NCBI GenBank assembly: GCA_000511875.1
Contig: AZIN01000001.1
Location: 186,001-250,000, forward strand
DNA length: 64,000 nt
Source: Gammaproteobacteria bacterium MOLA455
Lineage (GTDB): Bacteria > Pseudomonadota > Gammaproteobacteria > Pseudomonadales > Porticoccaceae
Direction: 5' to 3'
In this document: positions 57,243 through 64,000 of the stretch, piece after piece
Layout: each line of letters begins with the position of its first letter
Position numbering within the stretch: the first letter of the stretch is position 1
Made by a program: the position numbers and the translations under genes
The notes under the pieces: model-generated
The model's database searches: none
Told to the model about the DNA's origin: nothing
What the model saw: the letters and a program-made list of their open reading frames with translations, nothing else

Positions 57243-58541
<1,299 letters not shown>

Positions 58542-58561
58542 TTAAAAATTAGGGTTGAAAA

Positions 58562-58933
58562 TCACAGTAAGCGCGTCAGCCAGATCGAACTGCCGATCGC
58601 CAGCAGACATAGAACCACTGTCGCTAACACATAGAGCAGCGCCATAAAAAGGTGGCCATTTTGCCACAAACTCAGTGCATCAAGCGAGAAGGTTGAGAAG
58701 GTTGTAAAGGCGCCGAGAAACCCAATCATCCACAAATCACGCATTTCTGTCGGTAAAGCACTGCGTTCAACAATCAGCACAAATAATATACCCATAACAA
58801 AACTGCCCAGCACATTGACCGTTAGCGTGGCATAGGGAAACCTATGGTTGGATAGCTGAACCACCCAAGTACTGACTCCATAGCGGGCCATAGCGCCCAG
58901 AGCGCCACCAACAGCAACAGCCATCCAACTCAT
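58562..58933 (-). CDS. crcB: Fluoride channel CrcB/Fluc
   Basis: A 123-residue inner-membrane protein with four helices. GGALGAMARYGVS, the TLTVNVLGSFVMG segment and GFLGAFTTFSTFSLD are the Fluc signatures; the Asn and Phe residues line the fluoride path. It exports fluoride. It overlaps the rarA stop by one base, as in the conserved rarA-crcB-serS order. Confidence 0.93.
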   Translation of the reverse strand: MSWMAVAVGGALGAMARYGVSTWVVQLSNHRFPYATLTVNVLGSFVMGILFVLIVERSALPTEMRDLWMIGFLGAFTTFSTFSLDALSLWQNGHLFMALLYVLATVVLCLLAIGSSIWLTRLL

Positions 58934-60264
58934 TACAGCGCTCCTTTTTGCTGGTTATCTAAGCCGCGCAGGTAGGCCAGCTTCTCCGAAATTTTCTTTT
59001 CCAGTCCGCGATCAGTGGGCTGATAGTATGTTTTAGCGCCAAGTTCCTCGGGCAGATAGCACTCGCCTGGGGCATAACCACCCTCTTCACTGTGGGCATA
59101 TCTGTAGTCTTTGCCGTATTCCAAGTCCTTCATCAGGCTGGTCGGCGCGTTGCGCAGATGCATGGGTACTTCATAGCTGGGCAGTGAGCGCACATCCGCC
59201 ATAGTCGCCTTAAAGGCGCTATAGACAGCATTACTCTTGGCTGCAACAGCGAGATAAACCACCGCCTGAGCTAGGGCCAGTTCCCCTTCAGGGCTGCCTA
59301 GGCGCGCCTGAACATCCCAGGCACTCATCGCCAGTTCCAGTGCTCGTGGATCAGCATTGCCTATATCTTCACTGGCCATGCGCACCAGGCGCCGAGCTAT
59401 GTAAATCGGATCACAGCCACCGTCTAACATGCGGCACAGCCAATAGAGGGCCGCATCTGGCGACGAGCCACGCACTGACTTGTGCATCGCCGAAATCTGA
59501 TCGTAGAAATATTCGCCGCCCTTATCAAAGCGACGGCTGTCTCCCACCAAGACCTGTTCCAGCACTCCGCGGTCTATAGCGGCAACATCGCCGGACTCGC
59601 TGGCCAGATCATTGGCAATTTCTAATAGATTCAGTGCCCGTCGCGCATCGCCATCGGCGGCACAAGCGAGCAGCTCTAAAGCCTCATCATTGAGCTGCAA
59701 CTGCCGCTCGCCCAACCCCGACTGCTGATCGGCCAAAGCCTGCTGAATCACTGTTTTGATCTGCTCCTTACCCAGACTTTTAAGCACATAGACACGACAG
59801 CGTGACAGCAGCGCATTGTTTAATTCAAATGACGGGTTTTCGGTGGTCGCGCCAATAAAGACCACAGTGCCATCTTCAACAAAGGGCAGAAAGGCATCCT
59901 GCTGAGACTTATTAAAGCGATGTACCTCATCCACAAACAGAATGGTTTTGCGACCACGCAGATCGCGCTGCTCTGTGGCCTTGGCAATGGACGCGCGAAT
60001 CTCTTTAACGCCAGAGAGCACTGCCGAAATACTTTCAAAGTGCGCATCTGCTGACGCGGCAATAATTTTCGCCAGAGTGGTCTTTCCCACTCCCGGTGGA
60101 CCCCAAAAGATCATTGAGTGCAGCGCCCCGCCCTCAATCGCCTCGCGCAGAGGTTTGCCGGGGCCAATCAAATGCTCTTGACCAAAGAATCCAGCCAGAG
60201 TTCCAGGGCGCATTCGCGCCGCTAGAGGCCGATAAACTTGCTGGCTGAACAGATCAGTTGGCAT
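58933..60264 (-). CDS. rarA: Replication-associated recombination protein A (RarA/MgsA)
   Basis: RarA (443 residues) is an AAA+ ATPase of the clamp-loader family that acts at stalled replication forks. Walker A is GPPGVGKTT (about 55-63), Walker B is [20 protein letters not shown], and the sensor 1 segment is [14 protein letters not shown]. The tetramerisation domain follows. I chose the Met at 60264 (MPTDLFSQQ), which overlaps lolA by 11 bases; the longer frame has no homology. Confidence 0.94.
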
Positions 60265-60919
60265 TATTGATGACGTCGACACCATCTGGGAGCTGAAACA
60301 CGAACTGATCGCCAGGCAGTGATGGGTTGAGTTCAAGTTGGGAGAAGCTAATGTGAGTAGTCTGGCCCAGAGTATCGGTCAGGGTAATCGACGAAGGCTT
60401 GGCCTGATCAAAGCGAATAATCATACTGTCGAACAGACTGCCGCCCCGCTCTGGCTTGAGCTCAAAGTGGCCCTCGGCGAGCTTGGTAACAAAATAGGCC
60501 TGGTCTAACTGATCCAAATCACCGGAAAACAAGATTGCTGGAGTGGCGGCAATATCTTCATTAAATGGCTGAATAATCACCTGTTCTAAATCCGGATCAT
60601 AGATCCACAGCGTCTCACCATCGGCAATAATCTGCTGGGGCATGGGCATCTCGACCACCCAGCGCACGTTATTGGGCTGAGATACCTGAAACAACCCCTC
60701 GGAATTCTGTAGCTCATAGCCATCGGCATCAGCTATTTGCTGCTGAAAGCGTGCTGAGAGACTAGTAATAGGTTGTAAGAGATCGCGCAACTGCTGAATA
60801 TCTTCGGCGGCGCCGCCCGCGTGGCTGTTGATGGCAGCTGATAGGCTGATAATTAAGGCAAGAGATAAAGTAAAGCGTCGCCCAAAGGCAGCAGTAATTA
60901 TATGTAGCGCAGAATTCAT
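60254..60919 (-). CDS. lolA: Outer-membrane lipoprotein carrier protein LolA
   Basis: LolA (221 residues) ferries lipoproteins through the periplasm from LolCDE to LolB. It has a signal peptide ([19 protein letters not shown]), then [17 protein letters not shown], the [17 protein letters not shown] strand and [19 protein letters not shown] chose the Met at 60919; upstream candidates are TTG or GTG. The usual upstream partner ftsK is absent here: the next gene is an H-NOX protein. Confidence 0.92.
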
Positions 60920-60980
60920 CTGTTTTATCACCCGGCCAGCAGCCAAAAAGGTCCGTTAAAACAGAGGAGTCTACCGTTTT

Positions 60981-61553
60981 TTAGTGCGCTGCAATAGCTC
61001 CATTTGGCGGTGTGATGAGCTTGAGTAAAAAACGCTCAGAGGACGCGCCGCGATCACCGAAGGATTCGCGCTGAACAATAATCTTTTCTTTATAAAAGGC
61101 GGCGCAACCGAGAATCAACCCCTCAGCCACATCACCCATACAGCGAGGCGACTGATAAATCACCTCCATGCGCGTGTCGCTGTAGTGGGTGCATTTAAAA
61201 GACGGCGGTGAAGCATCGGGATACAGCTTTTTCACTTCACCGTGAATAAACCCATCGACCTTGGCTAACAGGGCAAAAGAGGAGTCCAGATCGGCGATCC
61301 ATTGGGGATAGGCGGCAATCAATTCAGCAAACAAGTAAACGCCAAAGGTTTTGGTTAGATGCGCCACCGAAAGGTTAATTTTTTGACTCAATACCGCAAT
61401 CATGGCGATCAGTTCGCGGTGATCATAGTTGCCCACCGTAGTGTATATACCGCCACTTACCGGTGCTGCCTCAGCAATTAGTTCATCGACCATAGCGAGG
61501 CCATACTCTTTTTCAACCAGGTGTAAAAATGATGTAAATATCAATCCTTTCAT
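60981..61553 (-). CDS. H-NOX heme nitric-oxide sensor protein
   Basis: A stand-alone heme NO-binding domain of 190 residues. The proximal heme ligand is His104 (VDGFIHGEV). The propionate-binding YxSxR motif is Tyr133, Ser135 and Arg137 (YQSPR), followed by GDVAEGLILGCA. The start MKGLIF matches the family and AAGGAAG precedes it. Bacterial H-NOX proteins bind NO and control an adjacent histidine kinase or cyclic di-GMP enzyme. Here only broken kinase and regulator genes lie upstream, so its partner is missing or elsewhere. Confidence 0.9.
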   Translation of the reverse strand: MKGLIFTSFLHLVEKEYGLAMVDELIAEAAPVSGGIYTTVGNYDHRELIAMIAVLSQKINLSVAHLTKTFGVYLFAELIAAYPQWIADLDSSFALLAKVDGFIHGEVKKLYPDASPPSFKCTHYSDTRMEVIYQSPRCMGDVAEGLILGCAAFYKEKIIVQRESFGDRGASSERFLLKLITPPNGAIAAH

Positions 61554-61615
61554 TTACTGCTTCCTTTCAAATATCGCTTCCTCGCATTGGCCGCTCCATG
61601 CAGCCAATCGATAAC

Positions 61616-61903
61616 CTACCAACAGATGCCCTCACAATTTTTAGCATACTTAAATGAGTCTCCCAACCCCACGAGATCAATCACCGGCATAAAGCGCTTT
61701 GCTGCATGGGCCGCATCGCGACCATAATCCGTATTGTGGCCGACGATCAGCAAATCCACACTGTTCACCAGCTGGCTGAGCCTGTGGCAGCGAGATTCAC
61801 TTGCCTGCTGATCCAACCCCATACGGATAAGGTTCTCAGATTCGACATTGGGGTCGAAGTAACTCACCTCTTTGCCTAACTGACGCAACTGTCGCATCAA
61901 CTC
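61616..61903 (-). pseudogene. Tail fragment of an AlgD-type GDP-mannose/UDP-sugar dehydrogenase
   Basis: About 95 codons (ELMRQLRQLGKEVSYFDPNVE to the C-terminal CEGICW) match the C-terminal nucleotide-binding domain of GDP-mannose 6-dehydrogenases. AlgD of Pseudomonas ends in the same VDLVG ... EGICW pattern. The NAD-binding and catalytic domains are absent. The fragment is joined, in a different reading frame, to the remnant of a response regulator near 61900. The frame is open into the regulator for about 12 codons, but those codons are not homologous. It cannot make an active enzyme. Confidence 0.72.
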
Positions 61904-62168
61904 TATCGCTGTAGCCACTGAGAACAATAGTCTGAACATCAGGCCACATGCCCTTTATCTGGCTGATCATTTCACTGCCCTTCATTAGCGGCATGTGCTG
62001 GTCTGAGATCACGAGATCGGGGCGATTGTCAGTGACATACTAAGGAGCTTGTTGAGGGCAGCTAAAGTCCACCAGATTGACACCCAGCCTTACCAGGCAG
62101 CGTATCAGTGACGAGAGCACTGCCTTCTCGTCATCAACAATCAATATAGTGGGTTGACTATGGTTCAT
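61900..62168 (-). pseudogene. Response-regulator receiver domain, broken
   Basis: Starting from an ATG at 62168 the protein reads MNHSQPTILIVDDEKAVLSSL, then a TAG at 62040-62042 after 42 codons, then continues in the same frame with DLVISDQHMPLMKG and TIVLSGYSD. The acidic pocket (DD), phospho-acceptor Asp (SDQHMP) and the conserved Ser/Thr (LSGY) are visible. The conserved Lys and last strand-helix are gone because the sequence changes abruptly near 61900. The gene has both a nonsense mutation and a missing C-terminus. Confidence 0.85.
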
Positions 62169-62399
62169 GTACCGCGCCCCCTTCCCTGGGTAATTATTGG
62201 TCATTTTTTATCGGCACTAGTCAATCTGCACCTGCTATAAAGCAATACCAGCAGTAACTGGCGACCAAAAAAAATAGTTAATAACACTATAAATACAGGC
62301 TATTCATTCAGCACTGCTTTACATTTTATTGAATAATTTTAAGTAGTGTAGTTCAAAACTGCGGACCTATTCATTTATTGCGATGAACTTATCGTGGCA
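62169..62399. other. AT-rich gap with no gene
   Basis: About 230 bp lie between the receiver remnant and the kinase remnant. The sequence is AT-rich and has no clear frame or terminator. Confidence 0.4.
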
Positions 62400-62830
62400 G
62401 TTTTACCGAGACACTTTTTCTCGAGACACTTTTTGTTGAGACGCTCCGGCGATCGGCAAAACAATTTTAAACCCTGCTCCATATCCTTCTGTGCTGCTAA
62501 CGACAATTTCACCACCATGGTCTCGATTGCCATCTTGACGACATGTAGACCTAAGCCTGTACCCTTGCCAATTTCCTTAGTGGTAAAAAAAGGATCAAAT
62601 ATATTGGTCAAGTTATCCGCCGCGATACCAAAGCCATTATCGGCAATCTCAATCCAGACCCAGTCGCCTGCCTGGCTACTATTCAAATTAATGAGTCCAT
62701 GCCCTTCAATAGCATTGGCGGTATTGACCAGGAGGTTGAGAAACACCTGCCCTATTTTCCCAGCCTGGCATACTACACAAGCCTTTTCTGGCCGAGCCTT
62801 TTCTGGAAATACCCTGCCTATAAAAGGCCT
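62400..62830 (-). pseudogene. Histidine-kinase ATPase domain, frameshifted and truncated
   Basis: The remaining part reads [15 protein letters not shown] (N box), [23 protein letters not shown] (G1/F boxes) and [15 protein letters not shown] (G2 box), then jumps frame. Reading one base over from about 62518 restores [23 protein letters not shown], the normal end of the domain. A single missing base thus breaks the gene. Upstream, a stop codon lies shortly before [10 protein letters not shown], and no dimerisation/phospho-acceptor or sensor domain is present. Confidence 0.88.
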
Positions 62831-62898
62831 TTAATAAAGTATATTTGATATCGCCATTCATGGCAGTCTAGCTCCAGTTTTTTGTGCAGGTCAGTTTG

Positions 62899-63456
62899 CT
62901 ATGAAATAGCTCTAGGTGTGCGTCGAAGAATTATTTTTTCGTTGTAATCGATTTCTGGGTCTGACGCACTGCGCTCAATATGGAAGCTTTCACCATAGTG
63001 AATAAACATTGCTGAAATCAAACCCTCGACAACGTCTCCTGGCAGAAACGTAGAGCGATAGTCGAGCTCTAGAATATCGGGACTAATATTGGTACAGCTT
63101 ATCGAGGGAGCTATAAACCCTGGAAAGGCCATGCTGACAATTTTATTCAGCGCCATGTCATGAGTTCTTAATAGGTCAAAGGCATTGGTGTTTTGGCTGA
63201 TCCATTTCTCATTAATTGCGAACATCTCTGAAAATAGCAAAACACCTACTATTTTTGCCAATTTTTTTGTAGAAACACCGAGTAAAATAGCACTGTTGGA
63301 AAGCAGTATAGAAAGGGTATCATCTGGGAAATCGTCCATAGATAAATAAATGCTGCCCAGCGATCTGTCCATCGACTGTAGTAATTCGCTGGAAAACTGA
63401 TCGCCATAGTGCTTTTCTAAATGGTTAACCACCGCTGCTAGAACAAACCCTTTCAT
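62899..63456 (-). CDS. H-NOX-like protein lacking the heme ligand
   Basis: A 185-residue paralogue of the H-NOX at 60981. The start MKGFVLAAVVNHLEKHYG and GDVVEGLISAMFIHYGE are homologous. The two proteins align without gaps through residue 140, but position 104 is Asn (ALNKIV) where the other has the heme His, and YxSxR reads YRSTF, so Arg137 is Phe. Both changes would prevent normal heme binding. The frame is intact, so it is either a recent pseudogene or a heme-free protein. I chose the Met at 63456; the longer frame adds 15 unrelated residues. A run of C lies just upstream. Confidence 0.8.
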   Translation of the reverse strand: MKGFVLAAVVNHLEKHYGDQFSSELLQSMDRSLGSIYLSMDDFPDDTLSILLSNSAILLGVSTKKLAKIVGVLLFSEMFAINEKWISQNTNAFDLLRTHDMALNKIVSMAFPGFIAPSISCTNISPDILELDYRSTFLPGDVVEGLISAMFIHYGESFHIERSASDPEIDYNEKIILRRTPRAIS

Positions 63457-63594
63457 GCTGCATCCCCCCCGGGAAACGGGCCAAAACATAAAGATAATCA
63501 TTATGTTTTGGCCACTACTAAAATATGCGTACAGATAGATCGGCTAATTTAAAAATACTAGCACCAATTATGCGTGTTTGCATAGAAATATATT

Positions 63595-64000
63595 TTAAAG
63601 CTTATACAACAAAGATACGGCCATCAGCTTTCGCTGATAGCCCAACGACTTAACAGTGTTGCGCTCATATTCAGCGCGCAGAGAAAAAGAGACCTTGAGG
63701 GAGTCAGTCAGTAGCGGGCGGCTGTAGACGAATTCGGCATGCTCACCAGCTCTACTGGGGCCCGCAGCTCCGGTTTCAGACTCTTCCGGAGAGGACTGTG
63801 CCTTTAAATAGGCTCGCTGGTAAGCCTTAACATTAAGCGTAAGATCGGCACCCATGCCCAGCTGATGATTAAATGTAAATGACAATTGATGATAGTTTAG
63901 GTCGCGAATACCCTCTCCATTGTCTCGAGCAAAGTATCCCTTAAGGTAAAGGGATGCGTCACTGTTCTTGCTCAATGCTTTATTCAGAACCATGCCATAG
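63595..64000 (-). CDS. C-terminal part of an outer-membrane beta-barrel protein
   Basis: The frame stays open through the right edge, so this is the last 134 or so residues of a longer protein. It has alternating strands (LYLKGYFARDN, HQLSFTFNHQLGMGADLTLNVKAY, EFVYSRPLLTDSLKVSFSLRAEYERN, LMAVSLLYKL) typical of a porin-like barrel. It does not end in the usual Phe. The family cannot be named from this part. Confidence 0.6.
   Translation of the reverse strand, partial: YGMVLNKALSKNSDASLYLKGYFARDNGEGIRDLNYHQLSFTFNHQLGMGADLTLNVKAYQRAYLKAQSSPEESETGAAGPSRAGEHAEFVYSRPLLTDSLKVSFSLRAEYERNTVKSLGYQRKLMAVSLLYKL

Follow-up and report, generated by a model that had tools for sequence, protein, structure and literature searches.

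In the characterised bacterial pathways, NO-bound H-NOX inhibits an adjacent kinase, and activation comes about when two subdomains rotate around a pair of conserved glycines, as set out in the sections of Lee-Lopez and Yukl (2022; PMC8738867) drawn on here. The same sections describe a very large group of H-NOX proteins, group 5, in which fewer than 10% possess the proximal His and most carry Pro instead, and they leave as an open question how these proteins sense a signal. In eukaryotes, the H-NOX domain of the alpha chain of soluble guanylate cyclase (sGC) has been called a pseudo-H-NOX, an N-terminal extension being given as the decisive block to heme in the portion of PMC8196705 used here, whilst the H-NOX of Vibrio cholerae, according to the excerpt of PMC7108781, conserves its proximal His and responds to redox state in the heme-free form through a Cys-based zinc site. 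Heme-less bacterial H-NOX proteins are already in print; what is new is a clade with Asn in place of the proximal His (hereafter Asn-type) that goes with an alginate-type gene cluster. Neither an Asn-type H-NOX nor an H-NOX gene in an alginate cluster was found in the titles and abstract openings of a mostly non-subscription literature.

The gene from which this clade was recognised lies in a window of 64,000 nucleotides, by which we mean the whole stretch of DNA analysed, from Gammaproteobacteria bacterium MOLA455 (Table 1). The clade resembles the bacterial H-NOX/kinase pairs in its match to the HNOB profile, in keeping Gly71 and Gly145, which we take to be the hinge glycines, and in the position of the gene beside a kinase and a response regulator in the relatives; it differs in lacking both the proximal His and the Arg of the YxSxR motif, in having a regulator of the NtrC type and in its alginate-type cluster. 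With group 5, compared here by description only, it shares a bacterial origin, a replaced proximal His, retained hinge glycines and the lack of a conserved Cys, but the replacement is Asn rather than mostly Pro, and the clade was found in one genus and with a defined cluster (PMC8738867, in part). The likeness to sGC alpha lies in the loss of ligand and YxSxR residues from a paralogue which is retained beside a heme-binding partner, although that protein is eukaryotic and multidomain with an N-terminal extension that is absent from the clade (PMC8196705, in part). From the V. cholerae protein the clade differs in having no zinc/Cys site, the common ground being independence of heme, which in the clade would be the case from its residues (PMC7108781, in part). 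In Saccharophagus degradans, SDE_3804 and SDE_3557 are both listed with the kinase SDE_3803, that is, two H-NOX proteins and one kinase, a likeness taken from the listing alone (PMC8738867, in part).

Table 1. Features of the window, and of two loci in other genomes that are discussed in the text
Feature	Position	Strand	Remarks
AlgD-like (nucleotide-sugar dehydrogenase) C-terminal remnant	61619..61906	minus	residues 455-550 of 550
Heme-type H-NOX	60981..61553	minus	190 aa; proximal His and YQSPR intact; PF07700 123.1 bits
NtrC-type response regulator remnant	61905..62168	minus	residues 36-123 of 548; internal stop
Histidine kinase remnant	62439..62788	minus	residues 228-344 of 344-aa relative, frame break; HATPase_c match
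Asn-type H-NOX paralogue (lacks the heme ligand)	62899..63456	minus	185 aa; Asn104, Phe137, His99; Gly71 and Gly145 kept
Perfect 13-bp inverted repeat	63479..63513	.	22 bases ahead of Asn-type start codon; unique in genome
Outer-membrane barrel gene remnant	63598..64000	minus	runs past window end; stops in upstream part
Double H-NOX/hybrid-kinase loci	L158 5413-11094 (G820); L159 3010-8653 (G725)		Arg-type copy also has Cys for Tyr of YxSxR

The sequence-only reading had described the gene as an H-NOX paralogue in which the heme ligand is replaced by Asn and YxSxR is destroyed. Its protein is a member of the fold family by profile search, scoring 68 bits against PF07700 (HNOB; cut-off 25.5) with residues 2-161 matched to profile positions 1-162/163, and, as had been claimed, it aligns without a gap to the neighbouring heme-type copy, over 178 residues at 28% identity. 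At residue 104 it has Asn where the neighbour has His and at residue 137 Phe where the neighbour has Arg; Tyr133 and Ser135 remain, however, and one of the three motif residues has been lost, so that "destroyed" is too strong a word. The GDVVEGLI motif is present and the frame, which begins with ATG, runs for 185 codons without an internal stop, both as had been stated. Proteins of the clade begin (M/V/L)KGF, and upstream in-frame starts would lengthen the protein by only 15 aa in the window genome (G000) and 10 aa in its nearest relative (G001). The inverted repeat ahead of the gene has an RNA fold z of -4.3 and is represented by a 10-bp version at the corresponding place in G001; in the 120 bases upstream of the gene in the other five genomes, no inverted repeats of at least 9 bp were found.

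A search with the Asn-type protein returned matches in 22 of 56 genomes (its own included), and a five-row profile returned matches in 22 of the 50 genomes of the genus, where seven loci score at least 209 bits, well clear of the next match at 112 bits. These seven, one copy in each of 7/50 genus genomes, constitute the clade, and Asn104, Phe137 and a clade-specific His99 are present in every member at identities down to 40%. As the same residues recur in all seven members, one per genome, Asn104 and Phe137 are not a sequencing accident. No match above 112 bits was found outside the seven in samples of the genus (50 genomes), family (112), order (390), class (369) and phylum (398), which overlap and are non-exhaustive and for which residues were read in the returned loci only. 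A peptide-pattern search of named genomes gave one relative, the contig of G001 itself, and a search of plasmids one distant match at 21.7% identity.

His is by far the usual residue at the heme position. In a first set of 61 distinct rows it was found in 53 of the 54 rows outside the clade, the exception being Gln in L015 (G026), and among 112 distinct aligned H-NOX rows from the fetched loci there were 99 with His, 7 with Asn (all of them the Asn-type clade), 3 with Arg, 1 with Gln, 1 with Val and 1, a fragment, in which the residue is missing. In a tree built from 60 rows after the removal of a single short one, the seven Asn-type rows are monophyletic with a support of 100/100 and a stem of 2.66 changes per column, and they group with the heme-type copies of the alginate-type locus at a weak fork (66/99); with a fork so weak and a stem so long, the parent copy is uncertain.

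The residues sought in a heme-binding H-NOX are absent throughout the clade, the proximal His being Asn104 and the YxSxR Arg being Phe137 in 7/7 members. His104, Glu106, Leu110 and Glu47, which occur in 52/52 full-length heme-type rows, are replaced; Tyr37, Gly71, Pro117, Tyr133, Ser135 and Gly145 are kept as in the heme-type rows. Phe4, His99, Asn104, Phe114, Phe137 and Pro139 are invariant in the clade and differ from the commonest heme-type residue, and a wider set of clade-invariant positions that are variable in heme-type proteins, or at which a conserved residue has been replaced, includes Phe4, Asn82, Trp85, Gln88, His99, Phe114, Pro139, Glu161 and Asn172. As only 38 of 185 positions (about one in five) are invariant among the seven rows, it is only mildly unusual that Asn104, Phe137 and His99 should all be fixed, and because the codons for residues 99, 104 and 137 are identical in all seven members, synonymous turnover at these sites gives no extra evidence. 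Each clade protein has 0 to 3 Cys; redox sensing by zinc and Cys was rejected as a candidate since none is common to all seven.

The sequence-only reading had held that Asn104 conserved in orthologues, together with Ka/Ks well below 1, would support a functional heme-free branch, and both results favour a maintained branch: Asn104 is present in 7/7 members, the window copy among them, and under a codon model omega comes to 0.234 in the five members whose kinase and regulator are intact, rising to 0.249 when all seven are included. For the heme-type copy omega is 0.073 (four rows) or 0.090 (six rows, G017 not included), so that the Asn-type clade is about three times less constrained, a difference which also fits partial relaxation. 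Across species, then, the Asn-type branch is under purifying selection, weaker than in its heme-binding sister. Between G000 and G001 the counting ratio of the Asn-type gene is 0.40 (bootstrap 0.23-0.72, with 0.1% of 2000 replicates at 1 or above; nonsynonymous changes 39/430 vs synonymous 26/125, Fisher p 0.0008), that of the heme-type copy being 0.11. However, the remnants in the window likewise give ratios below 1, namely 0.19 for the AlgD piece, 0.30 for the regulator piece and 0.32 for the barrel piece, all from few changes, and the kinase piece has zero synonymous changes; the low ratio between these two genomes is thus no proof of function.

The Asn-type gene lies directly upstream of the kinase gene, followed by the genes for the NtrC-type regulator and the AlgD-like protein, in G017, G018, G034, G069 and G057. 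A full kinase, of 344 to 353 aa, therefore adjoins it in 5/7 genomes and a truncated one in G000 and G001. The complete order, MBOAT-ALGX-AlgF-ALGX-barrel-HNOX(Asn)-HK-RR-AlgD-AlgA, is found in G017, G018 and G057; the cluster is partial in G069, where the contig begins in the first ALGX gene, and in G034, where the contig ends in the barrel gene and AlgF is on another contig. AlgA comes next in G017, G018, G069 and G057, and tblastn gave no match for it on the G034 contig; the AlgA gene of G018 (L038 6053-7520) is split by a frame break, the cluster being otherwise whole. Functional names come from a Pfam scan of the G017 proteins, to which the other genomes were matched by tblastn: the kinase has HisKA and HATPase_c, the regulator Response_reg, Sigma54_activat and HTH_8, and the remainder of the cluster MBOAT, two ALGX, AlgF, UDPG_MGDP_dh and GMP/PMI. 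The G017 barrel protein had zero Pfam matches, "barrel" being our own reading.

An alginate-type cluster brings together homologues of Alg8, Alg44, AlgI, AlgJ/X, AlgF, AlgD and AlgA. In G018 and G057, genes for a PilZ-HlyD protein and a GT2 protein stand beside the MBOAT gene, a layout which is that of Alg44 and Alg8, and the gene set present consists of PilZ-HlyD, GT2, MBOAT, two ALGX, AlgF, a nucleotide-sugar dehydrogenase and GMP/PMI; "alginate-type" is judged from these genes. AlgF occurs in exactly 5/50 genus genomes, and these are the five with the full Asn-type cluster kinase.

Among the matches listed, full orthologues of this kinase occur in G017, G018, G034, G069 and G057, at 64-100% identity, and the next kinases, at 40-43% identity and nearly full length, occur in at least seven genus genomes, including G057. 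Six of the loci of these more distant kinases, fetched together with roughly 1.5 kb to either side, yielded no H-NOX, so that membership of this kinase family does not in itself go with an H-NOX; the loci concerned, L166 to L171 (G012, G021, G019, G013, G022 and G011), encode kinases of similar length at 41-43% identity. The cluster kinases have no 19-residue stretch above 1.4 on the Kyte-Doolittle scale and hence look soluble. A scan of nine loci for sigma-54 sites, requiring GG and GC and a match to at least 10 of the 12 consensus positions, found none and so lends no support to the idea that the NtrC-type regulator controls the cluster. The AAA+ and DNA-binding parts of the regulator are joined by a repetitive linker of varying length, with units such as EGSLLRDA in L037 (10842-12488) and L038 (9359-11008) and with other repeats in L039 (5031-6527).

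Heme-type copies are frequent near the cluster. Such a gene lies less than 100 bases past AlgA in G069 and G057, about 0.4 kb past the cluster in G034 and 0.8 kb past it in G018, and about 145 kb away in G017; it is within about 8 kb of the Asn-type gene in 6/7 genomes and in 4/5 of the species with an intact cluster. In the tree, the heme-type copies lying just past AlgA in G069 and G057 are the ones with which the heme-type copy of the window groups, again at a weak fork. The window genome has a third H-NOX, also of the heme type, directly after a nitrate reductase gamma gene (L001 576-2043; G000:C1, about 65.8-67.2 kb).

The gene order of the relatives persists in the window, where both H-NOX frames are whole and the other genes are fragments. 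The AlgD remnant abuts the regulator remnant at a junction which is identical in G001, and G001 shares the kinase truncation and has both H-NOX frames open. In G000 the only orthologue of the kinase is the remnant, with no other match above 63 bits, and the MBOAT protein had no match there; its positive control comes from a separate tblastn comparison, in which it finds its G057 relative at 76%. In a further genome, G056, a piece of AlgA stands beside a heme-type H-NOX and there is no Asn-type gene. G061 was considered as a second loss of the cluster and rejected, as its sole H-NOX groups with the other heme-type lineage and no pieces of the cluster were found beside it.

Divergence between G000 and G001 is far from even along the locus: per 100 bases it is 0-3% in the kinase and regulator remnants, 8-15% in the Asn-type gene, 4-7% in the heme-type gene and 2-23% in the flanking genes. 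When window positions 57600-64000 are set against L036, divergence reaches 23 per 100 bases in CrcB. This unevenness points to homologous recombination across the locus, and the difference of only 0-3% in the remnants indicates a collapsed allele that is young or has recently spread; it has probably moved by recombination. With divergence so patchy, the low ratio between the two genomes cannot be read as selection after the collapse, and nor can a value of 0.40 from what looks like a recombination patchwork settle the matter of decay. For the same reason, the deletion junction that the two genomes have in common was rejected as a means of dating how long the gene has been retained.

The Asn-type clade is not the only case of an H-NOX without its proximal His. 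Two genomes of the same class, G820 and G725 (family f177), carry an H-NOX in which this position is Arg, with a hybrid kinase of its own after it, and the pair adjoins an ordinary heme-type H-NOX with a similar hybrid kinase (Table 1). The Pfam scan of these paired loci covered the G820 proteins, in which HNOB matches of 57 and 141 bits are each followed by a HisKA-HATPase_c-Response_reg protein, of 577 and 579 aa. On the strength of this Arg-type case, duplicated H-NOX genes have probably lost the heme ligand from one of their copies on more than one occasion. Elsewhere, L015 (G026; L093 7937-8545), also from the genus, encodes an H-NOX whose heme position is occupied by Gln and whose motif Arg is replaced by Lys (HEGPK), on one long branch, and a 421-aa protein of G975 (L160 3813-5075) with Val at the heme position has an HNOB match of 87.5 bits, a V4R match and a PilZ domain, so that an H-NOX-like domain and a putative binding domain for c-di-GMP stand in one protein.

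The reading we prefer, and consider somewhat probable, is that a heme-less clade has been kept as a partner of the cluster kinase and that the window copy is stranded; taken by itself, that copy is most likely a still open leftover of a deleted or broken cluster. The sequence-only reading had allowed for a first stage of decay, and this may apply to the window copy: with the kinase, the regulator and the polysaccharide genes broken here, the Asn-type gene may be at the start of decay, its partners having been lost. There is about an even chance that the gene is already an early pseudogene in the window genome and its nearest relative, functionless and open by chance after a recent collapse of the operon, a possibility that is compatible with function in the five relatives. 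The fragments into which kinase, regulator, AlgD and barrel have fallen, the young or recently spread allele to which the near-identical remnants point, and G056, which kept a piece of AlgA and a heme-type H-NOX and has no Asn-type gene, all speak for it. Against it, neither G000 nor G001 has an interrupted frame, and nonsynonymous changes between them are below expectation, although much of that divergence may predate the collapse.

As to what the protein does where the cluster is whole, it is possible, if unlikely, that the emptied pocket binds some other small molecule at a site formed by residues such as His99, Phe114 and Phe137 and so brings a new signal to the cluster; the clade-invariant Phe4, His99, Asn104, Phe114, Phe137 and Pro139 suggest a constrained site over drift, but aromatic residues could merely fill the pocket. 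That the protein should instead act as a pseudo-subunit, forming a heterodimer with the heme-type H-NOX in the manner of sGC alpha, seems more doubtful still. The two genes are within about 8 kb of one another in six of the seven genomes, and sGC alpha lacks the His in human and YxSxR in a moth (PMC8196705, in part), but they are about 145 kb apart in G017. The subunits of sGC, moreover, meet mainly through their PAS, coiled-coil and cyclase parts, and these are absent here. Least probable of all is the retention of heme through another ligand such as His99, which is invariant in 7/7 members and lies five residues ahead of the lost one. The motif Arg has gone as well, column 99 is Val, Ile or Leu in 52/52 full-length heme-type rows and so offers no precedent, and a helix offset of five usually faces away.

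Returning to the preferred reading of a retained kinase partner, the clade would have arisen inside the genus, losing its heme ligands through the changes of His to Asn and of the YxSxR Arg to Phe, and would have been kept for its regulatory action on the neighbouring histidine kinase; the kinase in turn would feed the NtrC-type regulator in the alginate-type cluster. To judge from its residues, the Asn-type protein would not bind heme; with the H-NOX surface and hinge that it retains, it may bind to the neighbouring kinase and set the output of that kinase, either because it is fixed in one conformation or in response to a ligand other than a gas. Nitric oxide may act on the same kinase through the heme-type H-NOX close to the cluster, and the polysaccharide genes would be under the control of the regulator. 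Against this reading stand the weaker constraint on the clade, the distance of the heme-type gene from the cluster in G017, the related kinases that have no H-NOX beside them within the fetched flanks, and the outcome of the sigma-54 scan. A partner role for the protein had been put forward in the sequence-only reading, and it fits the gene order of the relatives, where the gene is beside a histidine kinase and mostly near a heme-type H-NOX, but in the window genome the partners are broken. More speculatively, and we think this unlikely, a heme H-NOX and a pseudo-H-NOX acting as a pair on one kinase may switch the alginate-type genes, a sensor pair evolved by a gammaproteobacterial lineage in parallel to the alpha/beta split of animal sGC; the independent Arg-type case of G820 and G725 would suggest that such pairs arise repeatedly.

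The clade is real, conserved and tied to a kinase and an alginate-type cluster, and by the pattern of its residues it is probably heme-less. One study (PMC9769550) is said to have tied dispersion, with NO among the named cues, to the alginate regulator AmrZ, and the clade places an H-NOX-like protein in an alginate-type cluster. It offers a natural system for the problem of how H-NOX proteins without the His sense, with a heme-type and a heme-less copy, one kinase and one regulator, and it comes with a comparison set in which the defined cluster is present in five species and collapsed in two.
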